The translations under genes and the position numbers were made by a program. The notes under the pieces are model-generated. The model was given only the letters and a program-made list of their open reading frames with translations, was not told the DNA's origin and searched no databases. From NCBI RefSeq assembly GCF_008831285.2, contig NC_045148.1:17787002-17851001 (forward strand): DNA of 64,000 nucleotides, given 5' to 3'. This DNA is from Nymphaea colorata. Lineage: Eukaryota; Streptophyta; Magnoliopsida; Nymphaeales; Nymphaeaceae. Shown in pieces: positions 7,490 to 35,518 of this stretch (within the stretch, counting starts at the first letter, position 1; the number at the start of each line of letters is the position of its first letter).

Positions 7490-8284
7490 TCAGGGTGACA
7501 GGACCCGACCCGATCCAAAATGAAATAAAAAACGGACGGGCAGAAGTCAAGCGGCAACAAAGATTTTTTTTTTTTAAATTTTTATGGATCCGGATCGGGT
7601 CAAGACTGACCCGACTCGGGTCCGACCCGACTCCCCGCCTTCCGCCCGACCGGCTCCGACTCGACCTTGCGAGCGGTTTCGGGGAAAAACGAAACGCCTC
7701 CCGCCATCGATGGCTGGGGGCGTTTCATCCGGCCCTCCCACCGGCCACTCCCTGTGGCTGGTGGATGAGGATGCCCTCGCCCCTCTCCTATTGAAGCGGT
7801 AAACGGAAAAAAGGGGAGGGACGGTTCGGCGGTCGGACGCCGCAGGGCTTCGAGCGGTCCTCACTTACCGCCGCCTGAGGATGGTGGCCGGACATCGCAT
7901 GAGCACAAGGATTGAACTCGCCTAACGCCCATCCTTCTTCCCGTTTCCCCCTTTTCCCTTTCCCTGTTATTCTGTCTCTCGCTGCAACAGACGATAGTTT
8001 CTTTTTCCCAACATAGTGGGTGGGCGCCGGCAAGCGGCTGCAAACGGGAGCCCAACGCTTCCATCGCCCATTATGCAACAGAGGAAGGAACAGGCATGCC
8101 AGTGCCCTATTCTTCCACGTTTCTTCCTATTCCCTTTGCATAAAAAACATAGTATGCAAAGGGAAACGCGCAGCGAAAGCGTGGTAGTGGGCCCATAACC
8201 CATTGTTGGAGCTTTGCGACGAATCAAGATAGCGCACAAACGAAAATGCAAAAATTGAAAGACATTCATTGATCCATGTTTTTC
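7490..8284. other. GC-rich left flank of the FHA-carrying LTR element
   Basis: This stretch is markedly richer in GC than its surroundings. It opens with repeated GACCCGACCCGATCC-like words (7500-7640) and an oligo-T run at 7565. Several short overlapping ORFs exist on both strands, but none shows a recognisable domain. It joins the right flank at 18803 once the LTR element is mentally removed, so both flanks were one locus before insertion. The function of that locus is not recognised. Confidence 0.35.
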
Positions 8285-11200
8285 TGATACGGTCAGACCT
8301 ACAACACTGCCGAGAGAGGACACAAATGTGGCCAAGAGCAGTCGTCATGGGCAGGGCCAGCCCGTTATGCAGAGCACTATGGACGACCAAGGCCAAGTTG
8401 ACCCGAATGTGGGTCAAGAGGGAGGAGTGGGTGGCACGAACCAGGTCGGAATCACCTTGGAAGAGGGTAAAGACACACTTAGAGTTGAAGCAGAGGGTGG
8501 AGAGGGCGGAGTTGCCAAGGCTCTAAGTGAGGAACCAGAAGAATCAGTTGGAGATCCAAGTGCGGTACTTGAAGACCAAGGCGGTGGATCTAGTCCCGGT
8601 TTAGATCAGGTCCAACCTAGGGTCGAGCCCAAACCGGTCACTTAGGGTCAGCTTAGGGCAACGCCTAGGCAAGCCGGGATCCAAATCGAAGCCCGAACAC
8701 ATGCGGGCAAGAAGAGGATCCGTTTAGGATTCGAGGCACTAGGCCTCAAACCTTTTGTTACGCGCATTTTTGCTTTTCTCTTTCCTTTTGCGCCATTTGT
8801 TTTTGGATTCAAGTTCTAATCTGGATCAAGTGTTAGATCCGTTTTTTTTAGTCCAGACTATATATTCTTTGTATTCTTTGGTTTTGGTATGCAATCAAGA
8901 ATATTGGAATTCATTTGTCAAGTTCCTCTCTCTCTCCTCACGGATCTCTCTCTCCCTTGCGCTCCTTCTTTCCCCACGGCACCTCTTGTCTTCCTCGTCC
9001 CCACATTTGGGTGAAACCGACAGCCATTGCCGATTCCAACCAAGCTTCCCCAAACCCGAGGGCTTCTTCTTCTCCTTGCCTTATTCTCTTTCTCTCTTCT
9101 CAAACACTCGCCCAAGGTTCGACGGCTAGAAGATCTCCAAGTGCTCCGGCGAGAAGAGTCTCCTTGCCCACGTTTTTCCCCACTTCAACATCCGGCTGTC
9201 GAAGGTGCAATCTTCCTTGAACACAAGGGATGATTAAAGGACAGACCCGCCCATGGGAGGACCTCATTCCGGCTAGGCAACTAGGTGGTGTAAGGTGTTG
9301 ACATTGAATCAAACGGCGGAAGGTTACTACAACAACTTGGCTTCGCGAATTGTGAAGTTTTGTTGGACTGTTTTGAGGTAAGATTCGGCCTTAGAGACCT
9401 GCTCTTTTCCACGGTGTAAACCCGTGAGTTGGGGCTGAATTCGACGGTGAAAGTTTGCTTCAAACCTGTTTTTACAAGTCACAAGGAATCCTTGAAAAGT
9501 CCGTGCTATACCCAAGCTATTTGGAAAAAGTTCACCGGCGTAATCCATCATAAAACTCAGTTTTACGCTTCGGTTTAGGCCTGAGATTCTTACCGAAAAT
9601 CAGTGAGAAAAGTCTTGGAAAAACATTGATTTGGACGGTGGAAAAAGGGAAAAAGCATTAAAGAATTATCGTCCAAGTAAAAGGAAGAATTTGTCCAAGT
9701 TTGAAGCGATTCCGGCTTGAAACGGAATAGCTTTGGGCTTGCCAGAAAACTGAAATTCCGGCAGCCGCTGCTCTCTTTCCGGCCAACATTTGGGTGCTCT
9801 GGCCAAAGGATCAGATCTCCTACAATCATACAAAATATCAGCCACATTTGGTGAAGGCGCAAGTGGGAAATCAGGAGGATCTCCTAGACGAGTACACCTA
9901 GCCGCCGGTGCATTTGGGATCATTTGGTCGGTCCTACTCTTGAGGTAACTGAATATTCTCATTTGAACCTTTCGCCACCTCCACCCTTCATCCTCGCCAC
10001 GTGGCGGAGATCTAGTGCATTAAAGAGATCTTTTGGAGAGAGCTCGCCCCTTGCTTCCAAGATCTTAGGAAGTGCTCCACATTTGGTGGGATCGATCCAC
10101 TTTTGGGAGATCTTTTTGGTATTCAATCCCAAGTTCTTAGGTAGTGGCCTTCATTTTAGGATCTAGAAACCCCAAGCCTTGCCACTTGTCCTAGTCCCTT
10201 GCTCGTTCACACTCATATCATGTTCCAAGCCCTTGGGTGTCGCCAATGCCCTAGCCGATCCACATTTCTTGGCCTTAATCTTAGCCTCTCTTCCAAAAAT
10301 CGTGGAAGATAGCCTCTACACTCCTAACAGCTAAACCTACGTTTTAGCTAGCCTAGTCCAGCCGTCATTCTCCTACATTTCTCGCCATCCTTTGCCTTAC
10401 TCATCTCTAGCCAGCCGCCGCTACCATTTGGTGACTTAGCCTTAGCCCATTTCCATTCCCATTTAGTGTTTCAGCCCTAGACCTACCCTTCCTAGATTTT
10501 AGGAGTTGGCTTTTGACCAACGAGTCCACATTTGTTTGAACCTAGACTTGAACCTTTGAACCTAGCTCACCTAACCTACCTCGTGTCCAATTCTCAGCCC
10601 AATTCAAGCTTAGTCAATAGTTGACCCACCTAGCCTGAGCCTAGCTTAGATTGCCCGAGCCCACCTTGATCCACCACATAGGCGGCCACAGTCTTAGCCC
10701 CCAAGGCAGCCCGTGAACACTATCACAGCCTTGGACTTCTCGTGGCCGGTGGATCCTAGCCAGCAGCCACCTCTTTGCTGTCGGCCTTCTGCGCTGCATC
10801 AGTCCAGCGCGTGGCCAGGCAGACGGCGCCAGTCGTCCAACTCCCTACCGCGCTCGGGCAGGAGGGCCGAGCCTTCGCCTTTAGCAGCGGCTAGGAGGGG
10901 CGCCTCGTTTGCCTCTGCCGGTGCCTGCCAGCGATCTGTAGCCAGCGCCTGCTGCCAGCTCCTGCCTGCGTCCTGCAGCCAGTCCTTGTCTACGGTTTAG
11001 TCCAGCCCGCCTGCCTTATTGCTGTCGGCTGTCTACACCAGAGTTCAGGCCATTGGAGCTAAGGACCGAGTCATCTACAGCAGCCTTTTTGGACTGGGAC
11101 TTCACCTACCTGGTCGATGCAATACCCAAGGGTCGGTTATCACCTCGTGGTTGATCTTGCCGCTTAGCCAAGCTAGATTTGGCTGGTAACTCCTCTGAAC

Positions 11201-11655
11201 CCCCTATAGCTACGTGGGAGGTTGTTTTGCTTTGGTTATTTGTTTTTAGCCCGGCCTTTGGCCCTTGTTGCGCATTGAGGTAGCTCGGAGGCTCCACGCT
11301 GAAGACACGACCTCGTGGCAACTTAGCCTCCTACGGGTGGGTGTGGTTTGCTCGATTAGGATTGGTTGGTGGTTTGCTTGAGTGAGTTGTGAGAGTTTTA
11401 TTCATTGTATCGTGCGCGCATTGTATTGGTCTCACATCTCTTAGTAATTTGTAGTATGATTGCTTTTTGGGATTGGGTTAACCACTCTTGTAATCTTTAA
11501 ACCTATTGGGATTTTGAGTCGGGGTTCCTGTCTGACTGGGTAGTGTCATTGTATTTGTTTTCTTTAGGTTTAGTCTTAGGTTGCTCCAATGTGATCTTGG
11601 GGGTAGGCGCGACCGTCGGCGTGGAGTTTGGTCGACGTCGGAACAGATCCTACCA
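8285..11655 (+). repeat. 5' LTR of the FHA-carrying element
   Basis: It is a direct repeat of 15437-18802, with TG...CA termini. A possible TATA box (CTATATATTC) lies near 8857-8866. The ORFs inside (for example 8328-8645, 10713-11000) occur in the right LTR too, simply because the sequence is duplicated, and show no protein family resemblance. Confidence 0.9.
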
Positions 11656-11658
11656 ATT

Positions 11659-11671
11659 TGGTATCAGAGCC
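11659..11671 (+). other. Primer binding site, initiator tRNA-Met type
   Basis: TGGTATCAGAGCC lies three bases after the left LTR end. This is the standard plant LTR-retrotransposon site complementary to the 3' end of initiator methionine tRNA. Confidence 0.9.
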
Positions 11672-11786
11672 TCCTTGGGCGCAGCCAGAAGTTTTCAGTT
11701 TATAGTTGTTGCAGTTTTCAGTTTGTAGTTAATCAGATTTCTGTGGTGCAGCCACCTTGGACCGACTGATACCAAATCTATCAATT

Positions 11787-11799
11787 TGGTATCAGAGCC
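11787..11799 (+). other. Second copy of the primer binding site
   Basis: The same 13 bases TGGTATCAGAGCC, preceded again by CAATT, recur 128 bp downstream of the first copy. Both are followed by a similar C-rich word (TCCTTGGG versus GCCTTGAA). A tandem or template-switch duplication of the PBS region is the simplest reading. Confidence 0.75.
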
Positions 11800-12749
11800 G
11801 CCTTGAAAAGCAACATTGGATTTCAGATTTGGTTTTGGAGTTTTAAGTCAGATTTCAGTTTTCAACAGTGTTTGAATTGATATTAATTTTAAGAGTGGCA
11901 GTTTAGTATTCAGTGTAGCAGATTAGTAGCTTATTTGTGTGCCACAGAGCTAGCACATAGAGCCCTGAGAGCTTTCGGCAGAATTGCATTTGGCTCAAGG
12001 CAATGCTGTTTACTGAGCGCGATCATAGTCCTACCTGATCTAAACAGTCGAATCTGTTGATTTCCCAATGATCTGAGAGTGGATCCTACACGAACGCATT
12101 CATAATCATCCAGGACACAATCTGTCCAATTTTGGTGCGAAACGGAGTTCATTTGAGTCTGCAAAAGTGAAGATTTTACACGTTCAGCCCGCTGACTACA
12201 GATTCTGTGAAAACAGAACCTTCGTCGAATTTCGGCAACCGGCGCTCTCAGATCAGTTGTCAGAAAAGGTCGAGCATTGGCTCACTGGAAGCGCCTATGT
12301 GTTGAGAATCTTAAGTTCAAATTTCAGAATTTTTGGAGTTATAGATCAAAAGTTATGATTTTTTGAGTGGACCCCTGTCGCTGGAGAGTTTCCTGCGCAA
12401 ATGATAACAGACAACGTCTGAATTGAACCTGTCCAGACGTGAATTTCAGAAAAACGAGTGCAGCACTGGAGTGGAGTTAGGAGCTGAAATTGGTAGCGTT
12501 GGATTGCCTATTGAGTCTAGTATTTTACCACCAAATTTCAAGATTTTTGGAGATCTGGTTAGAGAGTTATCGAATTTGCAAGCAGAACCAGTTTTCTGAA
12601 AAATTCCTGCGACCAGTTCAGAGACCACAACACTTGGCATTCTAGTTAGCAGATTTTCTAATCTTTTAGTTGGCTTCAGCAGTATAACAGATTTTGAGTA
12701 GGTTTGCTTCAGAAGTAGGAGTTGTTCTCGTAGTGTTTTGGTAGAGTAA
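11800..12749. other. Untranslated leader of the FHA-carrying element
   Basis: About 950 bp lie between the second primer binding site copy and the first long ORF. Short ORFs on both strands lack recognisable features. I see no gag-like sequence here. Confidence 0.5.
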
Positions 12750-13301
12750 ATGACGGATAAGGGTGCCCGTCTTGAGAATTCAAAGATGGATCTAGTTTTT
12801 AGCACCTACAAGAACGAAGGATTCGTGAAGGATACATTATTGATCCGAGGGGTAGACATGGACCAGGGCCTAAAGAGCGTTTATATCACAAATTTTAGAA
12901 AACCTAGTTGTGATTTGGTCTTCCAACACCCTAGTGTACAAATGTGTCATTTTCGGTTGGCAATCGATAAGGTTGCTCGTAAAATTTGGATCATCAATGA
13001 CACAGACACGGGTAGACTTAGTTTTGCTGGTCATGGGGAGATATTTCAACATTGGGTGCAAATCTATCCTGGAGAAGTCATCAAAGTGGGATCTATGGAC
13101 CATTATTTTATGTTGGCAAAAAGAACCTCTTATTTTGCCACGGAGCAAAGAGAGCTTCACATGGAACCTAGTGAAGAACGAGAAGAAGAAGAGGAAACCT
13201 CCTCTAGGTCTGATGAAGAAGACAGCAGCTCTGAGTCTTCAAACAAAGATAAAGAGAGTTCAGGTTTACAAAGTGAAGCATATACCATTCCTCACAAGTA
13301 G
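12750..13301 (+). CDS. FHA-like domain protein encoded by an LTR element
   Basis: A 183-codon ORF starts ATG at 12750. Residues 41-125 follow the forkhead-associated (FHA) layout. The FRKPSCDLVFQHPSV block corresponds to the GR...cDIvl..psV region, with Arg50 kept and Gly replaced by Phe. QMCHF sits where SRRHa normally is, so the His67 is kept but the phosphate-binding Ser/Arg are changed. INDTDTG matches the DLgSTNGT loop, and YPGEVIKVG matches the vpLxPGDxIxlG strand. The rest, residues 137-172, is an acidic Glu/Asp/Ser tail. FHA domains normally bind phosphothreonine peptides; the altered Ser/Arg pair suggests that binding is weakened or different. The frame closes with TAG at 13299. The following frame, shifted by one base, continues in similar composition, so this is probably the first part of a longer, broken protein. 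The FHA assignment rests on pattern matching by eye. Confidence 0.6.
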   Translation: MTDKGARLENSKMDLVFSTYKNEGFVKDTLLIRGVDMDQGLKSVYITNFRKPSCDLVFQHPSVQMCHFRLAIDKVARKIWIINDTDTGRLSFAGHGEIFQHWVQIYPGEVIKVGSMDHYFMLAKRTSYFATEQRELHMEPSEEREEEEETSSRSDEEDSSSESSNKDKESSGLQSEAYTIPHK

Positions 13302-15158
13302 GCACACCATATAATGAGAAAGACTCGACCAACGTGAAAGAAATGCATCAAACGAGTCATGAGTGGGAGAAGCATAATCAAACACTCAAGGAAATGCTCA
13401 AAGCCTTGACCCCTACTAAGGAAAGAGGAAATCATGTAAAGGCGCAACCACCTCCATGAAAAACGGGCAATGCTCAAACTTACAGGAGGGCCTATTCGAA
13501 CAAAGGTCTCCTTCCAAAGTCCGGACCTTTTCAAGGAGAAATGCACTTGGAACCTTACCATACTACGACTACACGGAACGTCATTTCAACTTCTAAGGTT
13601 GTAGTCCATCCAAAAGGGACTAAACCAAACGTCCAACCAAAGCCAGCAGAGGAAAAGGTTGAGAGAGTGGGCACTATAGAGCCCAAAGTGGATGATGAAG
13701 CATTGTGTCAGGTTCTATCAAAGGGATGTGAAGGAAACGGCAATCTTGACAAATTACATCGTGGTAAGATGACGCACAATACCAAGGACGATGAGTCAAT
13801 AGCATCATGGACCACCCAGGAAATATTGGATGAAATTGATCGCATATGTCAGGATTTCGATCTAAGTGAGGAACCCTCACCTAGTGTGATCCAGTTGGTA
13901 CCACAAGAAGATCGACTTAAGAGTGAAATGCAGGAATCCAGTCCTAAGTCCCCACCAGCCCGAAAACAGGATGAGTTTTTAAGGTGTCAAGCTCTAGCTT
14001 CACCCATGGGAAAGAAGGAAGAACCTTATGAGCTTGAACCCATTGAGAGCATACTTCCAGATGATAAAGTAGAGCTGATTCGTTGTCAACTACAGGAAGA
14101 GCTCATCATCAGTAGCAAAGTGGGCCGTAAAGAGGAATCACTCGATGCTCTAAGTATAGGGTCCAATACCCTTGACACCGTCCAAGATCCGGCGATAAAG
14201 CAAGAATACATGTCCAATGTCTCAGTTACCACAACCCGTCCCTCTTAGAGATATGGCAGAATCTAAGGAGGGTGGTATGGATTCACTTGTTGTCATTCAG
14301 CCCAGGAAAGAACTCCAAATACGGGTGACTCAAGAACTAGTAGATGTGGTACTAGCTCCCAAGAAGGATGAAGCAGAAAAGAGAGAAACATGTGAAGTAT
14401 CTCTCCAATTGCAAACGACAAGAACAATTAAGGTGAAGCAGTTAACCTATGTGAGGAAGAATGCTTTTCCCAACATGCAAAAATGGAGTAGTTCGAAGCA
14501 ATGTGCATTCTCTTCTAGAAGATTGACTAGGCATGGATGTAAGCAGAGGACTAAGCCCCTCAACGTTCAAGAAATGTTAGAAGAAGAGCAGTTGGCTGAG
14601 TGTGATGGAATCCTCCCTGAATCCGAAGAGGATAGTATAAGTAGCTCAGAGGACCTCCATGGATCCACTTCAAAAGGGAGTCCATTCCAAAATAAAGAAA
14701 GGGAAAATCCAGCCAATTACCATAGTGCACGCCAAGTAAACAAAGTGGACCAAGGAGTTATCAGTTCACAAACTAAACCATACAAGTTCAAGGGATCTCC
14801 TCTAGCCACCTTGGAAATGACACAACGGCGGCTTGACCTTCAAAGTGGTGACCATACTACGTCACAAACAAGATCGAAAAGCTTTACCCGGAAAGATGGA
14901 GAGCCTATCAGTTTCCAGACTCTCCAAACTGTACTCGCGAGCTACGTGAAGACTTTGGGTCTCTTATGCCCACATAAACTGGAGTCAGCGGTACTTCATG
15001 ATTCCAAGAAGAGTAGCACAATGAAAGCGCAACAGGCCCTGAGCAGTAAAGGCCGGCAAGTTCTTCGAGCAAAAAGCAGACAATGGCAAGCACATGACCG
15101 TGGGAGAGCCAGTCCACAACTAGAGGACAGTAAAATGGGCAAACAACTGACAAGGTAG
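13280..15158 (+). pseudogene. Continuation of the unfamiliar ORF of the FHA-carrying element
   Basis: After the TAG at 13299 the reading frame that is open lies one base over. It runs from about 13280 to 14248 with one TGA at about 13457 and encodes 13541-14248 as a 235-residue piece. The frame then changes back near 14217-14248 and runs to a TAG at 15156 (313 residues). Beyond that stop the frame still encodes LPRDYGP twice and a basic PKRKRKRES cluster, to about 15350. The product is hydrophilic, rich in Glu, Lys, Ser and Gln. It lacks a zinc knuckle, protease, reverse transcriptase or integrase motif, and I do not recognise a family. It could be a highly diverged gag or a captured host gene. 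The lesions suggest one ancestral protein of roughly 850 residues including the FHA-like N-terminus. Confidence 0.55.
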
Positions 15159-15420
15159 CATAGAGTTTTGATTGGACAGCTACCTCGCGACTATGGCCCA
15201 GGGCAACTGCAAATCAGCCGAGTAGAACAAAGGGAAAGAATGACTCAGGTGATTACTAAGGTCTACACAAGAAGACCAAGAAGATGTTTCCTTTTCCTAA
15301 GAAACTCCTAAGAAGCGTTACCTAGAGATTATGGACCAAAGAGGAAACGAAAAAGAGAGAGTGACTGTGAACAGACCCACCAAAGGAAAGGTTTACTAGG
15401 AGCTTGGGGAGAAGCTCATT

Positions 15421-15436
15421 CTAAGGAGGGTGGATC
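15421..15436 (+). other. Polypurine tract of the FHA-carrying element
   Basis: CTAAGGAGGGTGGATC immediately precedes the right LTR and is the usual plus-strand primer type sequence. Confidence 0.75.
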
Positions 15437-18400
15437 TGATACGGTCAGACCTGCAACACTGCTGAGAGAGGCCATAGATGTGGCCGAGAGCAGTCGTCAT
15501 GGGCAGGGCCAGCCCGTTGTGCAGAGCACTATGGCCGACCAAGGCCAAGTTGACCCGAATGTGGGTCAAGAGGGAGGAGTGGGTGGCACGAACCAGGTCG
15601 GAATCACCTTGGAAGAGGGTAAAGACACACTTAGAGTTGAAGCAGAGGGTGGAGAGGGCGGAGTTGCCAAGGCTCTAAGTGAGGAACCAGAAGAATCAGT
15701 TGGAGATCCAAGTGCGGTACTTGAAGACCAAGGCGGTGGATCTAGTCCCGGTTTAGATCAGGTCCAACCTAGGGTCGAGCCCAAACCGGTCACTTAGGGT
15801 CAGCTTAGGGCAACGCCTAGGCAAGCCGGGATCCAAATCGAAGCCCGAACACATGCGGGCAAGAAGAGGATCCGTTTAGGATTCGAGGCACTAGGCCTCA
15901 AACCTTTTGTTACGCGCATTTTTGCTTTGCTCTTTCCTTTTGCGCCATTTGTTTTTGGATTCAAGTTCTAATCTGGATCAAGTGTTAGATCCGTTTTTTT
16001 TAGTCCAGACTATATATTCTTTGTATTCTTTGGTTTTGGTATGCATTCAAGAATATTGGAATTCATTTGTCAAGTTCCTCTCTCTCTCCTCACGGATCTC
16101 TCTCTCCCTTGCGCTCCTTCTTTCCCCACGGCACCTCTTGTCTTCCTCGTCCCCACATTTGGGTGAAACCGACAGCCATTGCCGATTCCAACCAAGCTTC
16201 CCCAAACCCGAGGGCTTCTTCTTCTCCTTGCTTATTCTCTTTCTCTCTTCTCAAACACTCGCCCAAGGTTCGACGGCTAGAAGATCACCAAGTGCTCCGG
16301 CGAGAAGAGTCTCCTTGCCCACGTTTTTCCCCACTTCAACATCCGGCTGTCGAAGGTGCAATCTTCCTTGAACACAAGGGATGATTAAAGGACAGACCCG
16401 CCCACGGGAGGACCTCATTCCGGCTAGGCAACTAGGCGGTGTAAGGTGTTGACATTGAATCAAATGGCGGAAGGTTACTACAACAACTTTGCTTCGCGAA
16501 TTGTGAAGTTTTGTTGGACTGTTTTGAGGAAAGATTCGGCCTTAGAGACCTGCTCTTTTCCACGGTGTAAACCCGTGAGTTGGGGCTGAATTCGACGGTG
16601 AAAGTTTGCTTCAAACCTGTTTTTACAAGTCACAAGGAATCCTTGAAAAGTCCGTGCTATACCCAAGCTATTTGGAAAAAGTTGCGTAATCCATCATAAA
16701 ACTCTGTTTTAAGCTTCGGTTTAGGCCTGAGATTCTTACCGAAAATCAGTGAGAAAAGTCTTGGAAAAACATTGATTTGGACGGTGGAAAAAGGGAAAAA
16801 GCATTAAAGAATTATCGTCCAAGTAAAAGGAAGAATTTGTCCAAGTTTGAAGCGATTCCGGCTTGAAACGGAATAGTTTTGGGCTTGCCAGAAAACTGAA
16901 ATTCCGGCAGCCGCTGCTCTCTTTCCGGCCAACATTTGGGTGCTCTGGCCAAAGGATCAGATCTCCTACAATCATACAAAATATCAGCCACATTTGGTGA
17001 AGGCGCAAGTGGGAAATCGGGAGGATCTCCTAGACGAGTACACCTAGCCGCCGGTGCATTTGGGATCATTTGGTCAGTCCTACTCTTGAGGTAAGTGAAT
17101 ATTCTCATTTGGACCTTTCGCCACCTACACCCTTCATCCTCGCCACGTGGCGGAAATCTAGTGCATTAGAGCGATCATTTGGAGAGAGCTCGCCCCTTGC
17201 TTCCAAGATCTTAGGAAGTGCTCCACATTTGGTGGGATCGATCCACTTTTGGGAGATCTTTTTGGGATTCCATCGCAAGTTCTTAGGTAGTGGCCTTCAT
17301 TTTAGGATCTAGAAACCCCAAGCCTCGCCACTTGCCCTAGTCCCTTGCTCGTTCACACCCATATCCTGTTCCAAGCCCTTAGGTGTCGCCAATGCCCTAG
17401 CCGATCCACATTTGTTGGCCTTAATCTTAGCCTCTCTTCCAAAAATCGTGGAAGATAGCCTCTACACTCCTAACACATAAACCTACGTTTTAGTTACCCT
17501 AGTCCGGCCGTCATTCTCCTACATTTCTCGCCATCCTTTGCCTTACTCATCTCTAGCCAGCCGCCGCTACCATTTGGTGACTTACCCTTAGCCCATTTCC
17601 ATTCCCATTTCGTGTTTCTGCCCTAGACCTACCCTTCCTAGATTTTAGGAGTTGACTTTTGACCCACGAGTCCACATTTGTTTGAACCTAGACTTCGACC
17701 TTTGAACCTAGCTCACCTAACCTACCTCATGTCCAATTCTCAGCCCAATTCAAGCTTAGTCAATAGTTGACCCACCTTGCCCGAGCCTAGCTTAGATTGT
17801 CCGAGCCAACCTTGATCCACCACATAGGCGGCCACAGTCTTAGCCCCCAAGGCAGCCCGTGAACACTATCACAGCCTTGGACTTCTCGTGGCCGGTGGAT
17901 CCCAGCCAGCAGCCACCTCATTGCTGCCGGCCTTGTGCGCTGCATCAATCCAGCGCGCGGCCAGGTGGGCTGCGCCCGTCGTCCAGCTCCCTACCGCGCT
18001 CAGCCAGGAGGGCCGAGCCTTCGCCTTCAGCAGCGGCCAGGAGGGCCGCCTCGTCTGCCTCTGCCGACGCCTGCCAGCGATCTGTAGCCAGTGCCTGCAG
18101 CCAGCTCCTGCCTGCGTCTTGCAGCCAATCCTTGTCTGCAGTTTAGTCCAGCCCGCCTGCCTTATTGCTGTCGGCTGTCTACACCAGAGTTCAGGCCTTT
18201 GGAGCTAAGGACCGAGTCATCTACAGCAGCCTTTTTGGACCGGGACTTCACCTACCTGGTCGCTGCAATACCCGAGGGTCGGTTATCACCTCGTGGTTGA
18301 TCTTGCTGCTTAGCCAAGCTAGACTTGGCTGGTAACTCCTCTGAACCCCCTATAGCTACGTGGGACGTTGTTTTGCTTTGGTTATTTGTTTTTAGCCCGG

Positions 18401-18802
18401 CCTTTGGCCCTTGTTGCGCATTGAGGTACCTCGGAGGCTCCATGCCGAAGACACGACCTCGTGGCAACTTAGCCTCCTACGGGTGGGTGTGGTTTGCTCG
18501 ATTAGGATTGGTTTGGTGGTTTGCTTGAGTGAGTTGTGAGAGTTTTATTCATTGTATCGTGCGCGCGTTGTACTGGCCTCACATCTCTTAGTAATTTGTA
18601 GTAGGATTGCTTTTTGGGATTGGGTTAACCTCTCTTGTAATCTTTAAACCTATTGGGATTTTTAGTCGGGGTTCATGTCCGACTAGGTAGTGTCATTGTA
18701 CTTGTTTGCTTTAGGTTTAGTCTTAGGTTGCTCCAAGGTGATCTTGGGGGTAGGCGCGACCGTCGGCGTGAAGTTTGGTCGACATCGGGACAGATCTTAC
18801 CA
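15437..18802 (+). repeat. 3' LTR of the FHA-carrying element
   Basis: It is near identical to 8285-11655, with scattered single-base differences and small indels (for example three bases missing around 16684). The first 120 bp carry several differences, while long stretches after that are identical by eye. The high similarity suggests a fairly recent insertion, but divergence was not measured. Confidence 0.9.
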
Positions 18803-19300
18803 GTTTCATAGGGCAGAAGTAGAACCTGTAGAGCCGACCGCCGACATCGGCGGCTGTTGGTTGAATGGCTACAGTCCCCATAGAGTCGTTCCCCTGCGGA
18901 GGTAGCGGCGACGGCAACGGCAATGGGTTTCTCTCCTTAGCCATAGCAGCCCAGTGATTGGGACAAGCAATTCACGTATGGCTAAGGGTACCGATTACAC
19001 AGACGGTAAAACTGAATGTGTCTCACACCATCACAAGACACAAATATTTATACTTAAGGATCCAAAACGGATATGGACCCGTATCGACGCAGGACTCTCC
19101 AGATGGGTAAATCCCAACACGAGTATCAAGATAGCCGTTTCTCTGGGTGTGTGAGAAGATTGAGACTCATTGCTCGAAAAAAAAAAAACCCAAAGCCCCC
19201 TTGTGTAGTCATGGAGCAACATGCCGCAATGGCGAAGCCACATTCTGGCTGGTGTGGGCAATTGCCCACACCAGCCCATGAAATTTGTTTTACTCACATA
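18803..19300. other. Right flank of the FHA-carrying element, with a minus-strand promoter-like motif
   Basis: On the minus strand a TATAAATATTTG word (plus coordinates 19041-19052) lies about 100 bp upstream of an ATG at 18944. That ATG opens a GC-rich frame (MAKERNPLPLPSPLPP...) which runs into the LTR insertion point. The frame does not obviously continue on the other side at 8279 when one target-site copy is removed. It may be the 5' part of an unrecognised gene or of the copia element leader. Confidence 0.3.
19247..19276. repeat. Perfect 30-bp palindrome
   Basis: Fifteen bases starting GGCTGGTGTGGGCAA are followed directly by their exact reverse complement, with no spacer. It could form a cruciform or hairpin, or mark the end of an unrecognised inverted-repeat element. 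Confidence 0.85.
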
Positions 19301-22106: not shown

Positions 22107-22351
22107 ATATGTGTTAACACCCCAAATTTTTTCACATTAAAATTGAAGCAATATGAAAATTTTACAAAAGAGTTGTGGAATTTTGCAATTTCAAAGCCAA
22201 TTTCGAACCTAAATGTATTTTGGATTTGAATTATGAATTTAACCCATGGCATGAATCCCAATGCAGGATTACGAGTCCAAATTATGTCCAAATTGTCGTT
22301 TGACATTCAAATTCAATTACACCCAATGCAGGATTACGAGTCTAAACTATG

Positions 22352-22505
22352 TCCAAATTGTCATTTGACATTTAAATTCAATTACAAATGTCATTTGACA
22401 TTCAAATTCAATTACAAATGTCATTTGACATTCAAATTCAATTGGAAATGTCATTTGAAATCCAAATTCAATTGCAAATGTCATTTGAAATCCAAGTCCA
22501 ATTGC
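22352..22505. repeat. 30-bp tandem repeat in the 5' LTR
   Basis: Units beginning CAAATGTCATTTGACATTCA start at 22385, 22415, 22445 and 22475, with a partial earlier unit near 22352. Just before it, a ~65-bp block beginning CCCAATGCAGGATTACGAG is present twice (about 22257 and 22322). The 3' LTR has one copy of that block and fewer 30-bp units. Confidence 0.85.
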
Positions 22506-23610
22506 AAAATTCAAATTTTGACTTAGATCCAAGAATTGGATCTAATTCAGTCTAGAAAGCTACGTGGGACCCACGTGTGGCCCCACCTAGCCCGTGTGGT
22601 CAAGAGCCCCCCCAGGGTTCACACCCCCCATTTAAAAATAAATAAATAAATAAATGTTTTCTCCCAATTAAATGAAAAAGCCATTTTCAAGGAGAAATGA
22701 ATGATATCATAACTAAAAACCTAGGAAAAGAGAAACATTTATGCATCTCTTCTTTAACTAGGTCCTCTTTAAAGAGTTTTCAATCTTCGAAAAGGTTCGA
22801 CCCTAGTGCACCCAAGTCTTAGCTAGGCTTAGTCAACATGAGGTCAGCTTGGTCAAAAAGTAGGTCTGTCTCACGATCCAATTAATGGACGGAAATAGAC
22901 TTTGACCAAACCAAACCCACTTTGACTAAACCCAGTTAAAGTACAATTTAACTCAACTAAGAGCTTTCTTATATCAAATTTATCAAATTACCTCAAACAA
23001 AGTCAAACTATTCGCAATTGAGCTTTGACTTTGGTCAATTGGTCGAAATAGACCAATGCGAACAATTTTGCCCCTCTATGATCTTACAGAGCCTAAATTG
23101 GCATATGAAAGGCAAATAAATATTTGGATTTGTCAACTAGATAAATCAAATGCCAAATTAAAATTCAATTTTTCAAACGAAAGTTTGATTCAGTTGAAAT
23201 CCATCCTCAATCAAATTATGGATGAAAATACCCTTTTCGAGATAAATTTGATAGAATTTTCAAATTTTATTCAAATTTAAATTGGATTATCATAATTCAA
23301 TGGCATTTGGAGCTTAATAACTAGGTTTTAACCTAACAAACTCGATTTCAAACAAAATAAATAAATAAATAGCACAAAATAAGGCAAAACCCTGGGCAAG
23401 GGCATTTTCGTCCAAAATTTGGTCAATGTTGGTCAGCTAGGTCTGAACCAAGTTGACCAAACCTAACCTAGCCCACCTAGCTCGTGCAATTGGGATAAGA
23501 ATGAGTAAGTAAAGTCATTAAATCTCCATTTATTCCATTTTTCATCTCTCTAAACCTTGATTAATCTTCCAAGGCAAATTTAAGGAGGTGGTTGAACTCA
23601 CCTCCTCCTC

Positions 23611-23618
23611 TATATAAA
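23611..23618 (+). promoter_or_regulatory. LTR promoter TATA box
   Basis: TATATAAA follows a CT-rich tract (CACCTCCTCCTC) and precedes a transcribed-looking leader. The same box occurs at 36933-36940 in the 3' LTR. It is the best candidate for the element's core promoter. Confidence 0.6.
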
Positions 23619-26160
23619 CATCCCCTTGGCCACGAAAGGGGGGGGGGAACGAAATTTTGAGGTTTTCCATCAAGTGCTGCAACCAAGGAGCTAGGAGGGA
23701 GAAGCCAAGGAAGAGAGGAGAGATTCGTCCAAGTATTCTTCCCTCTTTTCTCTTACTTTCTTCTTCATTTTCTTCTATTCTCTCCATTGATTTTGCTAAG
23801 TTAGGGTGCTTAAGTGAACCCTTACTTAGGATTTTCGTGGTGAGAAACCTTCTTTTCTAATACAAATTCCAGCAATCAAGCTATTCTACTTCTAGCTTTG
23901 CTAAGCTCGAATCCAAGCTTGGATTCTTGCTTAGGATTGGTCGATTTAGAAAACAAGTGAAGGCGAAGATCAAGTATCAAGACCGACCACAAGGTAGGTG
24001 ATTTTAACCATTTCTCATCTATTTTGTCTTCTCATTAGTTCATTTTAATTCCAGCAATTCGTGGGAGGGTTTATTTTCATTTGTTTCATGGTTGGGAATG
24101 ATGTCCAGCTAGGGGAAACCTACGATTAAATGTATATGTTAATGCATCATGCATGCATACGTCGGTTTTTCTTAAAGATGAACCCATGTATCAAATTTTG
24201 AAAAGGGCCCCAAGGCCACTTCCCTTTCAAAATAACCAGCTTAAAACCATTTTGAACTCCCCACCATAAGAGAATATCACGGTGAGAAAGTGATCTTGCT
24301 GCAATATATATATGACGAAAAAGCCTATTAAGGATGGATGCATTCTCATGAATGTAATCCACCTTTGCATGGCGAAATTAAGGATGAACTAGCTTGAGCG
24401 TTCATTTATTCCTTTCTATTTAAAGTTATTTTGTTTCATGCTTTATTTAATTGATCAAGGGTAGTAGGGGAGATTTGGAACAAGTTTTTAATTTTCCCAC
24501 GTAAAAGAATCCAGCCATGAATCTTCATGATTTGTGAGTTATGTGGTCCCTTCATGAAATTTCATTTTGAAGAGTAAAGTATGTATATGTATAAATTGTT
24601 ATATGTATACATGTGCGTGTTCAATCTCTTGTTAAAAATTGTTTTCCTCTCTTAAAACTAGATTGGAACACGTTTCCAAACTGGTTTTAAGAAGATGGTT
24701 CATTTTGATTTTCATATACCAAGTTATGAAATCACTTTCATTTCATTTTAGAATTTGATTAATTTCAGCAATCCATACGTAAGATGTATGTATGTTGTTG
24801 AAACCAGACCATGTTTTATAGGAACTGGTTTAAGAATGTCAAATTTTACATATTTGAAATGCCAACTATCCTAGAACCATCCAAAGAAGTTGACGATTTC
24901 ATGAGTACGAAATCTGAAATTTGATCAAGGACTTCTCATTTCTATCTAAAAAACAAACTCTTTATTAGAATCAATGTCCATAATTTTCAGCTATCTAAAT
25001 CAACAAAAGGTCTGATTTTTTTTAGCTATCTTGAGACAAAAGTGGATGTCATCCACGTCTCCCATCTATTTCAAAAAAAAAAATTGATTTTGACATCATT
25101 TATATTTTTCAACATTTTATAGTTTTATATCAAGTCTCAAGCTTATGGACTACATCTCTAATTCTTGTGCTTAATCATATAATAAGTACATTTAGAGAAA
25201 GTCCTTCATTTTAATTAAAATCATCTTTATGTGCAGATTGCATGACATATATTTACAATATGCACGTTGAGAGATTGTGAGAGAGTGAAAAATGTATGTT
25301 TCATATGAATGAACTTTGAGAGATTATGAGAGAGTGAAGAATGTATGTTTCATATGAATGAACCTTGAGAGATTATGAGAGAGAGAAGAATGAATGTTTC
25401 ATATAGTTTCCATTTTCATTTCATGCATTCACTTTCACTCAAAATCAATAGTACCACATGCACATTCTTAAGAAGTTAAGTTACTCAAATTCGAGTTGCA
25501 AAAAGTGACCAAGTCATGTTGCAACAAGAATTTGTAAACTTCTCTTGACTTCAAAAGAAAACACAAACAATGCATTCATAATCTTGGCCAAAGTATGTTT
25601 GGAAAACAACACGTTTTCTAACAATGTTTTGAACTCTTCCTAACTAAATTACACGATTTGGCAAAAGAAAAATTCAAAAATCAAGTTTCTTTGCTAAGGA
25701 AACTTAGCTATTTTCCAAAAGTTGATCATAATTTCAACTCATGAACCATCTAGAGTTCACAACAAAGAACTCAATTTCAAATTTTCAAAATCCTCAAGAA
25801 TTTCCAATTGCAGATCAAATGACACCAAAACAAAGGTTTTTAAATCAACTTGAAAGCTCTCCAATTTTCAAATTCATTTTCGAAACAAGTTCAAATCACT
25901 TATTCAAAATTAATTTTGGTTCTTGAATCCAAAACGTCAATACATAAGCATATAGGATTTGCATCAATAACTCGTACATGATCCAAATGATCCTTAGTCA
26001 TTGGTCTAATTACCCCTGTTAAAGGCGGCAGGAACGGTTGGATCTCGTACCGATGGGTGGATCCCTTTCTCTTGAAATTTTTTTTGAAAACCTCAATTTT
26101 AAAAGAATTTTGTTGATTCGCAATTCACACCCTTCGAGAAAGGGGTGGGGTGTGAAGAGA

Positions 26161-26178
26161 TGGCACACCCGGTGGGAC
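26161..26178 (+). other. Putative primer binding site of the Tat element
   Basis: TGGCACACCCGGTGGGAC begins two bases after the 5' LTR end, the expected position. It starts TGG, as tRNA-primed sites do, but is not the initiator-Met type. I cannot assign the tRNA without a tRNA set. Confidence 0.6.
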
Positions 26179-26179
26179 C

Positions 26180-26939
26180 CATCATTGTTTGTCTAAGGAC
26201 CTATTTGAATCATATACAAGTTCTTTTACGTTGCCGGATATCAATTGCACAAAATTTTTCATAAACATGCATACCGGCATCATGTAGTATACAGTGAGGA
26301 GATTCCATGAACCTCTTCCATTTCAATTTATCCTACCCCTCCTCAGTTTAGGGATTGTATGCAGCTCATGTATGCTCTCAAATTTTCAAATCTATCTCTT
26401 AGGAATGTATGCAATAGAGCCATCTATTTCGCATCTTCTCATGAATTTTGAAAAACAAATCCTTACCTATATCATGTCTCGGTCATCACGTTGCCGAGCT
26501 ATCTCTAGGACATTAGTCCAAGATGTAGCCTTACAACTGGACCACCCAATTGGACTGAGAAGTCCCCCCATTAGTATCGAAACAGACAATAGTCTTGGTA
26601 TATCGATGGGTGAACAAGGAGAATTGGAGAGCCCAAATCTAGAAAACCCTTGGAGGAGTTTATGCCAGTACCATAAACTTGGTATATAGGCATACCTTAA
26701 ATTATTGGATAAATCGAAAACGATTCACCCATTTATTCTCCATAGGTTTCAAGACCAGTTTTCAAAACAATGCATATAGGCAAGAGTCCTAGGGAATACA
26801 TTATCAATTTTTCGTTAATTGCTTGTTTGGATGCATATGATGTTTGCCTCTAAGTCCATGTCCAAACACAATGTCAAAACTCTTCTCGAGTCTCTATTGG
26901 GTAAATTCATGTCAAAGTCTAACACCTTCTCTTGTCTAG
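26180..26939. other. Leader region upstream of the PMD ORF
   Basis: A 131-codon ORF (26294-26689) is open here; its second half (from a Met near 26474) is Ser/Arg-rich, but it has no recognisable domain. I treat it as an uncertain small ORF or leader sequence. Confidence 0.35.
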
Positions 26940-28142
26940 ATGGACTCAGAAAGCATTTTCTCATATGGCCACATCCTATTCGGGTCGTGTCAAGGTCGAT
27001 CCGGACTTCGCATCATCTCAAGTGGTGTCTACCTACCTCAGTGGTATCTTTCATGGTACCCAACTTTTCGGTGTATGTTTTTGGACCACTTAGAAGATTG
27101 CGGTCTCGAAGAAGCTATTAGTCTTGCCATGCAACCTATCAATGACAATCTAATCCATGCAGTTGCCGAAAGATGGAACCCAAGGACCAACACATTTTGG
27201 TTCCCATGGGGTGAAATGACAATCACTCTTGATGAGTTCTCCAGCATTATGGGCTTGCCAGAACCAAAAGGTGACCCAAGAGGTCCAATGGAAGACCAGT
27301 TCCTTGTAAACCAAGGTCAAGTGAAAACTCTAGAAGTGATTCGTAAACTCACAGGGAAACAGAGTTGGCCTTTTCTAGAGAAAGATGTACATCAATATCT
27401 TCAACTACAAGAACTTGGTGAAACATATTCCCAATTTGTCAACCCTACGTCACTATCTAGAAGTGTTGCAGACAAGTACAAAAACTCCCTGGTGACTTGT
27501 ACCGCGGGTCTTATATTCTTCAACAATGAAGAACACATAGTGGATTTCCGCATAGCCCACCTCTTCAGAAAATGGGGGCATGTCAAAGTCCGTCACGTAT
27601 CCGTAGCCTTGGCATTTCTTTACAGAGGACTGACCAAATTTTCAATTGGAGATGCAGACTCGATAGAAGGATGTGTCTTCACACTACAAGCATGGTTCTA
27701 CAAACATGTGGGGCCACAATCATGTCATTTTCAGAATACCGATGACCAGTTATCCAGTATGGAACACTACCGTAGGAGGATGGAGGAAGTGGATGACTCC
27801 ATCATCAATTGGGACTTCTTTGATCGAGAAGTCATCAAGTCAAGATACACCTACAACCCAGTCAGAGGAAGTCTTCTATTGGGACCATTCTTCATAGTCG
27901 AATACCATCCGGAGCGTTGCCGCAGACAGTTATCACTGCGTCAAAGAAAAGCATATCCAATTGAGTCAGAAAGAGCCATTGTAGAGTGTGAACTAGATAC
28001 CGAAGAGTGGTCCGGAATATACACCTACGCCCAACAACGTTGGGAATCATTTGCTCACTTGTGTCTTATCCTTGGTCCAGGAATGAGTCCTGAATATGTA
28101 AAATGGTGGGATGAAGTCCGCCCATCTATCCTTCTGTCCTAG
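26940..28142 (+). CDS. Plant mobile domain (PMD) protein in the Tat element
   Basis: A 400-codon ORF without internal stops begins ATG at 26940 and ends TAG at 28140. It matches the aminotransferase-like plant mobile domain. Typical blocks include LIHAVAERWNPRTNTFWFPWGEM, split here as LIHAVAERW and TFWFPWGEMTITLDEF, followed by IMGLP. Further C-terminal blocks are VSVALAFLYRGL and YVKWWDEVRP. PMD proteins are known as plant nuclear factors (the MAIN/MAIL family), and PMD-bearing ORFs are also known in plant transposable elements. Its place between the PBS and gag fits the extra ORF1 described for Tat/Ogre elements. It is the only long coding part of this element without a visible lesion. Confidence 0.8.
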   Translation: MDSESIFSYGHILFGSCQGRSGLRIISSGVYLPQWYLSWYPTFRCMFLDHLEDCGLEEAISLAMQPINDNLIHAVAERWNPRTNTFWFPWGEMTITLDEFSSIMGLPEPKGDPRGPMEDQFLVNQGQVKTLEVIRKLTGKQSWPFLEKDVHQYLQLQELGETYSQFVNPTSLSRSVADKYKNSLVTCTAGLIFFNNEEHIVDFRIAHLFRKWGHVKVRHVSVALAFLYRGLTKFSIGDADSIEGCVFTLQAWFYKHVGPQSCHFQNTDDQLSSMEHYRRRMEEVDDSIINWDFFDREVIKSRYTYNPVRGSLLLGPFFIVEYHPERCRRQLSLRQRKAYPIESERAIVECELDTEEWSGIYTYAQQRWESFAHLCLILGPGMSPEYVKWWDEVRPSILLS

Positions 28143-28325
28143 ATTGTCATGTCTGGTACATTATTGTTAAGCCAAAATTTGTCAAGTTTTGTCAAGTTGT
28201 GTTGAACTTTGTCAAGTTTTGTCATTTTCATCTTTCTTTTAATATGCAATCAAAATTCGTCATCTCTCGTCAATTCAAATCCTGATATTTTCAACTTTTC
28301 TTCTTGCAAAGTGAACATTCGCTTT

Positions 28326-29510
28326 ATGGTCGAAACCAGAAGCCGACAAAGAAGAATGATTGAAATGGAACTAGAGCAAACTTTTGTGGGAGACAAGGGA
28401 GAAGAATCCTCCTCAGAAACACCTCCCAAGCTAGAAATGAATGATCCAGAATTTGAAGAATAAAGAAGATTTCGGAGGTACATGATTATGTTCAATGAAG
28501 AACAAGCTCAAGCAGAAAAGGCTAAAAAGAAAGGGAAGAAGACAAAGAAGTATTCATCAAGTAGTTCCGACTCTTCTGAAGATACTACAACAGAATCCAG
28601 TAGTGAGGAAGAACCAAAAACTCCCAAGAAAAAGAAAAAGGGAGAATCTTGGAAAACAAAAATTCAGGAAGTTGAAAAGAAGTTGAACGCAGTTCAACTC
28701 AAAGGCAAGAATAACAGGAATTTTACGTGCGAAGATTTCTATAAAAGTTTCGAACACGACAAGCATATAAAAAACTTGCCTAAGAAATTTATCAAATTTG
28801 ATGGCCATGGAGACCCAAAGGCACATTTGGCCATGTTCTTTGCTGAATGCTACAAATTTCACCACAATCAGAGGGCCCTCTTTCAATGTTTCCCAAGAAG
28901 TCTAGAAGGAATTGCCGCACAATGGTATCGGGAAAACCCAGTCGAATTGAAGAATTTTGACAAGTTAATCAACATTTTCATTGAAAAGTTCATTCAAAAC
29001 GTCGAAACTGCACCAACGATCACCACACTATGCTATCTGAAGCAGAGGTCAGGTGAAAAGGTGAGAGATTTTATTCAAAGATGGAGGTCTTCTTGCAACA
29101 AGATGAGGGACTCAATCTCTCAATCCCATGCATTGGGACTCATCGTAAACAATTTGACACAACCATTAAGGAGCCTCATTTCCAATGCTCCAATCAAGTC
29201 TTTCATCGATCTCACCGAGAGGGCAGAATGCATTGAAGCAGGAATTGAAAATGGAGCTTTTGATGTTGTCATCCCGGTAAAGTTTAGGGAAGATACAAAG
29301 AAGAATAGCAGGAGTCAAAATGCTCCAGCCAACGTCGTAGCCAACGCCGCCACCTTCAAGAAAGAGAAGTCAGAATATCCCAAGAATAAAGGGCTAATGG
29401 ACAGAGCTAGTGGCAGTAGCAGTGCACTAAAAACAAACATCCTGGATGGGGATACGATAGGAAATTCACCCCATTACAACAGAGTTATGAAGAGGTCATG
29501 CACATGTTGA
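28326..29510 (+). pseudogene. gag of the Tat element, interrupted
   Basis: The frame starts ATG at 28326 (MVETRSRQRRM) and is cut by TAA at 28461, then resumes in the same frame to 29510. The body has a Lys/Ser/Glu-rich N-terminus and then the retrotransposon gag core: KFDGHGDPKAHLAMF, AAQWYREN, FIQRWRSSCNKM, ECIEAGIENGAF. Near 29450-29510 the frame shifts by one base, and gag-related sequence (FCKFHHAPRHDTEDC, a CCH-type motif) continues in the next frame. Confidence 0.85.
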
Positions 29511-30370
29511 TCGAAAGAGCTACTTTGTTTCTCCCAAAAGTCTCCAACCCCCCACCGATGATGGGGAAAAACAAGGAGCAATTTTGCAAATTTCATCATG
29601 CTCCAAGACACGACACAGAAGACTGCCTTGTACTTAAAAATATTGTGCAAGATGCAGTTGATAAAGAAATCATCAAAGAAGTTAGCGAACAACCAGACAT
29701 TCTCAAAAACTTTTTTCCTAAACATGGGAAAGGAATAGTTTCGATGGTTAGATTTTCAACAGGTCCTCAAATTATGGTGACAAACAAAAGGGATACAGCG
29801 TCCATGGATTTCTTTGGATTACTTTTCAAACATGATAAAGGATCCATCAATGCACAAACTGGACTGGTTAAACAAGACCATCTGACAGAGATTGATCAGA
29901 AGTCACAAGTGTGCGACCCTGAACCATTGGAATCTATTTTCAAGGAATTGGACCCCTTATCCGAAGTCAGGAAGGGAGGATTTAGCCCTAACCAAGGAAA
30001 TGGATGGGCATTTGAATTATGTGAAAATGGTCTGATCATGTTCTTTGATAAAGATCTACCACTTGGAGGTGCATCGCATAATGATGTCTTGCACATAGTG
30101 GTAGAAACAAGGGGAACCAGAGTTTCTCATGTTTTAATTGATGGTGGAGCAAGCCTGAACATCTGTCCATAACAAACAGCTCGTGAGTTAGGCATAAGAC
30201 ATGTTGACTATACACCGTCGTCGATTTTCATCCATGGATATGACAGAAGAGGACAACCATGCCTAGGATGTATATGTCTAGATCTGAATATCTCTGAGAC
30301 GTATCATCGGGTTTTATTTCATGTGGTGGATATAGAACCCTCATTCAACCTATGGCTTGGCAGACCGTGG
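29498..30370 (+). pseudogene. gag 3' end and aspartic protease of the Tat element
   Basis: An open frame from 29498 includes FCKFHHAPRHDTEDC. It reaches the protease active site IDGGAS (Asp codon 30140-30142), then NICP and a TAA at 30170, where related elements have a Leu codon. Protease sequence continues in the same frame (TARELGI, FIHGYD, FNLWLGRPW). A frameshift follows near 30370. Confidence 0.8.
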
Positions 30371-30888
30371 ATCATGCTACCAATGCAGTTCTTTCCACTC
30401 TACATCAATGCATCAAATGGACTCACAACAGGAATACTATAACCATCTACGTAGAGGATAGACATAGTCGGCTTGTGCAACCAATGATTCCGGTACCAAC
30501 ATATACAATTGAGGTACCCAGTATTCGAGTATGCAAAGAGGAAGAAATATCTCAAAGTCTTAGCAGATTAGCCATTCAGATACCAAAGAAACAGGTGTGG
30601 GTGAAAAAGGGTACCAAACCTGAAACAAGTTACAAAAGTCATCTGTTATTCAAGAAATTCTGCCAGAATGAGAAATGATTGGATTTACTCCTATGCCATG
30701 GCTACCAGCCATTTACTGGTCTTGGCAAACATGAAAATGGAATCTTGGAACCAGTTACCTTGACAGGACAACGAGGCACTCAAGCCTTAGGATGCCAAAG
30801 CTATAAAAAAGTGGATGCCGAGGAAGAATTCAAGCCAATACCTTTTGTCAAGAGCAATACCATAGGTGGATGTTCACCATCAATCTGA
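30352..30888 (+). pseudogene. protease-to-RT linker with a G-patch-like motif
   Basis: The frame 30352-30678 continues the polyprotein (CIKWTHNRNTITIYVEDRH, split across the linker). A TGA at 30676 separates it from GYQPFTGLGKHENGILEP, which resembles the G-patch-like linker often found between protease and reverse transcriptase in this group. The end at 30886 is followed by about 170 bp without recognisable coding sequence. Confidence 0.6.
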
Positions 30889-31066
30889 ATCAATAAATTC
30901 GCTATCATTTTGTCATCCATTCATCATTTTGTCATTTTGTTATCATTATACTCCAAATAGACCAAGTGTCTTCATTTTGTAATACCTTCAAAGATGCAAT
31001 GACATATGCAATTTACTTCCATGTACAATGTCTCAAATGTCATCTAACTTCTTTATAATCTTTAGG

Positions 31067-33197: not shown

Positions 33198-34673
33198 AGC
33201 AGAGAAACACCATGGTATCAGAACATCAAAGATTTTCTCCGAACATGAACACTTCCACCTGAAATGTCTCGAAAGGAGTGAAGGGCCTTGAGGCATATGT
33301 CATCAAGATATTTCATTTTAGTAGACATCCTATACAGGAGAGGATTCAGTACAGAATATGCTAGATGTCTCGATGTAAATGAGGTACTAGAAGTCATTCA
33401 AGAAGCTCATGAAGGAATTTGTGGAGGACATGTAGGGTATCAGACCCTCGTCAAACAGATAGTCAGAGCATGATATTATTGGCCTACAGTGCAAAAGGAC
33501 TGTCATCAATTTGTCAAGAAATGCATCAAATGTCAGTTGCATGCACCATCAATTCATGCTCCAGCAGCATACCTTCATTCGGTCAGCTCACCCTGGCCAT
33601 TCTCTATGTGGGCCTTCGACGTGGTCGAACCAATCAATCCGCCTGCCTCAAATGGACACAGGTATTTTCTTGCAGCTACAGATTATTTCACCAAATGGGT
33701 CGAAGCAATCACCTTAAAAACAGTCGAAGGACGACATGTACTGTCCTTCATCCACAAAAAACTTTTGTGTAGATTTGGCATCCCGCACGATATCGTTTCT
33801 GACAATGGTACTCATTTTAAAAATGAGAAAGTGCGCAATCTTTGTCACAAACACAAAATACAACATTACTTCTCTGCCCCATATTACCCTCAAGGTAATG
33901 GTCAGGCAGAAGCAACCAACAAGATATTGATTCGTGTCTTACAAAGGACTGTTGAAACAGGCCAAGATTGGCACGAGAAAATGCACAATGCACTTTGGGC
34001 GTATCGAACCACAATTTGGACACCCACCAATGCTACACCAGCGGAGTTAGTATATGGAACGGAAATTGTCCTTCCATTACATGTCCAAAAACTAGCAATG
34101 AAATTTGCTGCTCTCATTGAACTCCCAATTAGCAAGTATCAAAAAAAGAGACTTGCTCAATTAGACCTCTTAGATGAGAAAAGACTACAAGCGGCAGAGC
34201 ACGCTGAAGTCTATCGCAAGAGAGTCGCCCGATATTATGCTAAATCAGTCACTGAGAGAAAATTTCAAGTAAATGATCTTGTACTAAGATCTATAGTTCC
34301 ACTCAGGAGTAGACCTAAGGGAAAATGGGCACCGAACTGGGAAGGACCTTATGTCGTCAAGGAGGTTCTACCTCACAATTCTTATCGGCTGATTGACGCC
34401 GATGGAGTTGAAATCCCAGATCCGATTAATGCTTTGCATCTCAAGAAATTCTATACTTTAATTTGCAAATCAATGATTTCGAAACAATTGTGCTTTAATG
34501 CACATTTTTACCAATTTTCAAACCAACTAAGGGGCATAGTATCCCTTAGTTTCAAAAAAAAAAGTGTCAAAATTTTCAAACTCAGCCCATGTCTTGAGGA
34601 CAACAGCAAAGGCATTGACTTGAAATATACAAGAAATTTCAATGAAATTGAGGGATTAATGTATAGAAATTAA
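33198..34673 (+). pseudogene. integrase of the Tat element
   Basis: The zinc-binding region (HEGICGGHVGYQTL ... CIKC) is interrupted by TGA codons at 33246, 33279 and 33471, while the core from 33489 is open for 394 codons. Catalytic acids are visible as Asp 33618 (AFDVVEP), Asp 33801 (VSDNGTHF) and Glu 33909 (GQAEATNK), giving the DD35E spacing. The C-terminus includes the GKWAPNWEGPYVVKEV block typical of plant gypsy integrases and no chromodomain. The frame stops at 34671. Confidence 0.88.
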
Positions 34674-35504: not shown

Positions 35505-35518
35505 CAAAGAGGGGCATC
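35505..35518 (+). other. Polypurine tract of the Tat element
   Basis: AGCAAAGAGGGGCATC ends at the first base of the 3' LTR and is the canonical plus-strand priming sequence in this group. Confidence 0.85.

Follow-up and report, generated by a model that had tools for sequence, protein, structure and literature searches.

Has a plant LTR element without pol taken an FHA domain from its host, and how would such an element spread? The question is raised by positions 8285–18802 of the window (the whole 64,000-nucleotide stretch of Nymphaea colorata DNA analysed here), which the initial annotation read as an element with LTRs, primer binding site, polypurine tract (PPT) and target duplication but no pol. 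We find the same structure; all stranded features of this element are on the plus strand. The 5′ LTR (8285–11655, TGATAC...TACCA) and the 3′ LTR (15437–18802, placed by BLAST to the 5′ LTR) are 96.6% identical, with 8283–11659 aligned to 15435–18806 over 3378 columns. The flanking 5-mers, TTTTC at 8280–8284 and GTTTC at 18803–18807, differ by one base and thus agree at four of five positions. Both whole LTRs are visible in two of eight related loci checked, L018 and L021, which have the same termini (TGATAC at the start; TACCA at the end in L018 and the window, TATCA in L021) and are flanked by perfect 5-bp duplications, ATGTC and AAACC respectively. A primer binding site identified by sequence match, TGGTATCAGAGC, lies at 11659–11670 and is presumably of the initiator tRNA-Met type. 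A second TGGTATCAGAGC-like site is seen at 11787–11798, 128 nt downstream of the first. The 3′ PPT, AAGGAGGGTGG, is at 15423–15433 and is preceded by AGCTTGGGGAGAAGCT. No Pfam gag or pol family matches any of the three internal window ORFs, so pol is absent here as claimed.

These three ORFs (12750–13301, 13541–14248 and 14217–15158) match aa 1–162, 236–435 and 453–738, respectively, of a single 872-aa ORF in the related locus L011, which indicates that the window copy is broken. The first carries the FHA domain (core at about aa 50–114) followed by an acidic Ser/Glu tail. An FHA-like ORF at 12750–13301 therefore exists as first described, but it is not a separate first ORF: judged against its relatives, this 183-aa frame forms the beginning of a single disrupted ORF whose intact counterparts measure about 870 aa.

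The element belongs to a large family. At least 150 rows in the window's own genome match the 183-aa ORF (150 of 166 candidates scored), a figure in which the exon of a host gene, PS1, is included and a few elements are counted twice, as two rows; many of the rows carry internal stops. Twenty ten-kb loci were fetched, picked partly for long open frames and so not a random sample. In 16 of these 20 picked loci the frame opened by the FHA domain runs, from stop to stop, for 600 aa or more (916 at most). Of the other four, L015 is masked, L020 has a stop within the domain, and the frames of L027 and L028 are shorter, at 423 and 452 aa. The proposal of a family defined by this domain is borne out by these counts. 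A search for LTR pairs around relatives, also proposed in the initial annotation, found flanking direct repeats at least 98.9% identical in 10 of the 20 loci, which points to recent movement. No Pfam gag or pol family matches the ORFs of 10 relatives, and neither the gag-protease nor the RT-integrase frames of L049, a Ty3/gypsy element described below, match any of the 20 loci by tblastn (E ≤ 1e-4). The family is non-autonomous, being without gag-pol in the ORFs tested. Its members encode an FHA domain and a long, apparently disordered tail; the C-terminal half has no confidently predicted fold (mean pLDDT 39.7 from an 11-sequence alignment, whose shallowness may contribute), and tail length varies among relatives. 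The remnant of an FHA element at L028 adjoins a PPR gene, and a fragment of a plant mobile domain also lies beside it. It should also be noted that C3 beyond 28.4 Mb (its last 2.5 Mb) is dense in FHA elements, with 17 of the at least 150 rows, and also in gag-protease rows, with 14 of at least 67; this clustering may just reflect an LTR-rich region.

Taken alone, the window ORF is only suggestive of an FHA domain because its Pfam score, 19.1 bits against a cut-off of 20.7 (0.8–1.6 bits short), falls just under the curated threshold. The family settles the assignment at the level of sequence, since Pfam FHA (PF00498) matches 37 of 39 family domain sequences (E ≤ 0.01) and five of 10 relatives' ORFs exceed the curated cut-off. 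A profile built from the 39 domains retrieved 24 PDB sequences (E ≤ 1), led by 2n84, NIPP1, DDL, CHFR and Ki-67, all of which are FHA-bearing proteins. The predicted structure of the domain (pLDDT 70.9, pTM 0.65) gave 398 Foldseek matches, 18 of them at E ≤ 0.001, the best being the kanadaptin FHA domain (1.9e-5), with Arabidopsis DDL third; the best 50 of the 398 are either FHA proteins or complexes with an FHA protein among their subunits. Sequence profiles and model together support a real FHA domain with a beta-sandwich fold, and the FHA layout first noticed in the letters has thus come through the profile and structure checks suggested for it. A chance FHA-like motif is ruled out by the PDB profile, the Foldseek matches and the 37 of 39 Pfam matches.

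The initial annotation also pointed to altered phosphate-contact residues. In Rad53 FHA1 the key residues are Gly69, Arg70, Ser85, His88 and Asn107 (PMC5549992), and PSL proteins retain the Gly, Arg, Ser and His (PMC3071787). By equivalences read from the alignment, the contact Ser is replaced in all 39 element domains and the contact Arg in 30 of 39, confirming the alteration, while the Gly is kept in 34, the His in 37 and the structural Ser in 37. L069 and L075, which are closer to L051 (discussed below), keep both Arg and Ser. With these losses canonical phosphothreonine binding is unlikely to have been kept, and the element domain is best described from its sequence as FHA by fold, not as a proven phospho-reader.

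Where did the domain come from? Capture of a host module had been proposed, and the window's own genome offers a source candidate. FHA and PINc together in one protein define PARALLEL SPINDLE 1 (PS1), which has a meiotic role (PMC2581889, PMC3071787). Searching this genome with PF00498 yielded 107 rows, and a PIN_4 row (C1:21448097) lies 2.7 kb downstream of one FHA exon (C1:21451170) on the same strand; PIN_4 has just one more row in the genome, on C9 and not near any FHA row. The C1 gene (L052) is therefore likely the PS1 ortholog. We compared 22 FHA loci (L051, L052 and 20 chosen from the PF00498 rows) with the element-FHA profile. L052 matched as two pieces with scores of 60.2 and 25.2 bits, which give the best sum of the 22. 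Other PS1-type sequences scored 64.4 (L051, which itself lies in an element), 57.7 (L073), 42.6 (L063), 41.7 (L077), 39.4 (L075), 38.4 (L069) and 33.2 bits (L059), and the next FHA locus, L060, scored 20.3. The closest non-element gene to the element FHA among these loci is thus likely the PS1 ortholog, and the capture proposal is supported to that extent.

The likeness between L052 and the elements reaches into the stretch N-terminal of the FHA core, so the elements have the same N-terminal extension as PS1 (AtPS1/PSL). They differ from PS1 in being LTR-flanked and in the contact-residue losses given above, and none of 10 element ORFs matches a PIN family. An apparent GT...CAG intron separates the two FHA pieces of L052; the elements lack it, as they would if the domain had been captured from spliced RNA. 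From these comparisons we infer that the direction of capture was from PS1 to the elements. The immediate donor may have been another copy, because the intronless L073, L063 and L077 score near the first piece of PS1. Further intronless PS1-type FHA sequences are found at L055, L063 and L059; L063 and L055 have in common a different upstream coding stretch and are perhaps other captures or element families.

L051, on C11, contains a canonical FHA domain (49.9 bits) followed by a weak protease remnant (17.4 bits, below cut-off), a helper-type C-terminal remnant and a PPT. A gag-pol element (L057) comes next, and we considered whether FHA might here be ORF1 of an autonomous gypsy element. Two adjacent elements are more likely, since the remnants and PPT end the FHA element before gag-pol begins and a 195-bp repeat (79%) precedes both. 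No primer binding site was found at L051/L057 within two mismatches. The same protease-like match occurs 2.2–2.3 kb after an FHA row at two more places, C11:4944985 and C12:5821813. Another locus, L078, shares the body of the L051 ORF (29–67% identity by part). Compared from about residue 80 onward (1374 of the 1454 aa of its frame), it begins with a stretch that resembles the L057 gag frame in its N-terminal part, and no FHA domain was detected in those 1374 of 1454 aa, nor is there a PF00498 row at the locus. This one sequence comparison suggests an exchange of FHA for the Gag N-terminus in a pol-deleted derivative, in which case FHA may sit where gag would otherwise have its N-terminal part.

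A family without gag-pol would be expected to need another element to supply these functions, and the non-coding parts of the window element indicate which kind. Its leader segment (12113–12616) is 73–74% identical to that of L049, which has gag, protease, RT, RNase H and integrase domains (rve under its cut-off), with RNase H preceding integrase and with its frames separated by stops. In L049 the leader stands directly before gag, and the primer binding site lies 2 nt past the LTR. The PPT contexts run in parallel as well (GAGCTTGGGGGCAAGCTC...TAAGGAGGGAGGATCTGATGC in L049, AGCTTGGGGAGAAGCT...TAAGGAGGGTGGATCTGATAC in the window). Immediately upstream of the PPT, both L049 (GAGCTTG...CAAGCTC) and the window element (15400–15420) have a short inverted repeat. 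Searching with the leader DNA returned at least 43 rows at no fewer than 40 places (40 of 111 candidates scored). Among the matches listed, an FHA row was nearby at 10 of these places, a gag-protease row at 14, both at none and neither at 16; L050, one of the last group, does hold gag. Cis sequences are thus common to the FHA elements and a Ty3/gypsy gag-pol element. Across 21 elements (the window and the 20 loci), the PPT block is matched in 18 (in L019 near its left end), the 3′ segment of the LTR in 11 and the leader over at least 300 nt in seven; the leader match is shorter or not detected in the other 14, so several helpers may exist. Gag-protease relatives number at least 67 rows (62 of 3763 candidates scored), and frames of up to 1780 aa are found in more distant relatives (50–62% identity). 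We conclude from the shared leader, primer binding site, PPT block and LTR termini that a Ty3/gypsy gag-pol element of this type is the likely helper. Calling it a chromovirus is our assumption, taken from a reading of the integrase C-terminus of L049; no Pfam chromodomain match was found in the L049 C-terminal frame.

The 3′ PPT sequence also recurs inside the ORF, in frame (K-E-G-G). In the window an exact copy of AAGGAGGGTGG at 14265–14275 is a candidate central PPT. Among 20 sequences, 18 hold a total of 31 internal sites, of which 23 are the exact 11-mer. The third codon of the site is GGT in 31 of 31 cases versus 150 of 763 other Gly codons, and the fourth, also Gly, varies (18 GGT, 8 GGA, 5 GGC). 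For 19 sites in 11 chosen representatives, the probability of this by chance is 3.8e-14 if sites are independent, which they are not fully. The L049 3′ PPT likewise has an internal copy in L049 and in L050, with A at the position that is T in the FHA elements. This concerted change with the 3′ PPT argues that the internal copies are functional, and they probably act as additional plus-strand primers.

Central PPTs occur in lentiviruses and Ty1, in which the 3′ PPT is likewise repeated internally. Here, in contrast, one to three copies lie in an ORF other than pol, in a plant element that is non-autonomous, and the likeness is one of conserved sequence. A literature search by title found nothing on topic for central PPTs in plant LTR elements. 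Conservation of the internal copies at the DNA level suggests that central priming takes place in plant elements.

Taken together, these data make it probable that this is a non-autonomous family with an FHA domain captured from PS1, and that a Ty3/gypsy element, probably of the chromovirus group, provides copying and integration in trans. The domain would have been captured from spliced PS1 mRNA and would now open the main ORF; its beta-sandwich would no longer be a canonical phosphothreonine reader; a helper with the same leader, primer binding site, PPT block and LTR termini would do the copying and integration; and the internal PPT copies would prime extra plus strands. Non-autonomous LTR families are usually thought to require just cis signals. 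An active role for the protein is indicated here by the way FHA defines sub-lineages, by purifying selection and by the near-identical LTRs of some copies. What that role might be is more tentative. The leading candidate, though on its own less likely than not, is that FHA is a protein-protein adaptor that replaces the N-terminal part of Gag and links element RNA or protein to the helper particle. The fuller scheme, in which a PS1-derived FHA domain replaced the Gag N-terminus, lost phosphothreonine reading and became an assembly or packaging module of a family that parasitises a chromovirus with central PPTs aiding reverse transcription, is rather doubtful as a whole.

LARDs spread with cis signals sufficing, and the ORF might be a functionless passenger on signals of that kind. 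Its many rows with internal stops, the broken window copy and a tail of variable length and no confident fold would fit such an ORF, but we consider this quite improbable given the dN/dS values, a comparison across copies that the initial annotation had suggested. In the FHA domain dN/dS is 0.10–0.45 in 15 of 18 pairs (not independent, and some near saturation); it is undefined in the remaining three, one saturated and two with dS of 0 (L016/L017 and L016/L018, dN 0.013 and 0.003). In the tail it is 0.22–0.64 in 14 of 16 defined pairs, the others being 0.87 and 2.25 (8 codons). The element FHA is, by these substitution patterns, under purifying selection, and the fact that 16 of 20 loci have kept a long open frame, although these loci are not a random sample, also speaks against a passenger. 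A protein that acts as a regulator or host-targeting factor, not as a particle component, would be under selection too. It would have kept a surface of the PS1 FHA in order to contact a partner in the nucleus, at the spindle or in RNA decay, with activity favoured in meiotic or pollen cells. The PS1 origin and the meiotic role of PS1 are in keeping with this, as is retention of the His and structural Ser in 37 of 39 domains each while phospho contacts changed; the loss of Ser in every domain and of Arg in most makes it unlikely that the known binding mode was kept, and we think this reading unlikely. That the region is a diverged Gag, named in the initial annotation as a finding that would count against FHA, is extremely improbable. 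The ORF does start directly behind the leader, the position at which gag begins in L049, but three methods (PDB profile, Foldseek and Pfam) identify FHA, no gag family matches the ORFs of 10 relatives and the C-terminal half has no confident fold. We therefore favour the trans-mobilised family with a PS1-derived domain.

LARD and TR-GAG elements are non-autonomous plant LTR elements. Like them, the FHA family has LTRs, primer binding site and PPT without pol and is expected to depend on a helper; unlike them, its ORF consists of FHA and a tail, with no recognisable Gag, and is conserved across sub-lineages. The initial annotation knew of no plant LTR family with such a domain, and our literature search by title agrees, with no report found of an FHA-bearing LTR retrotransposon. 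Ty3/gypsy elements with extra domains are known, with the plant mobile domain (PMD) in Ogre (PMC6317226) and an AlkB-like 2-ODD domain in orchid elements (PMC9289625). As in the FHA family, a cellular-type domain is kept by a plant LTR element, but those elements carry pol. In a survey that covered 121 angiosperm genomes, FHA is not named in the passages that deal with additional domains (PMC9289625); the term is also absent from the main text of PMC6317226 and PMC7264820. Because reverse transcriptase was its marker, the survey (PMC9289625) would miss elements without pol, as would any screen that starts from this enzyme. Since one genome holds the element together with its likely helper and its likely host source, capture, loss of phospho-binding and helper dependence are directly testable.

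The window also contains a second LTR element, of the Ty3/gypsy type, at 22109–39590. This element has a plant mobile domain ORF (PF10536, 3e-28) at 26940–28139, upstream of gag, RNase H and integrase, an association known from Ogre (PMC6317226).
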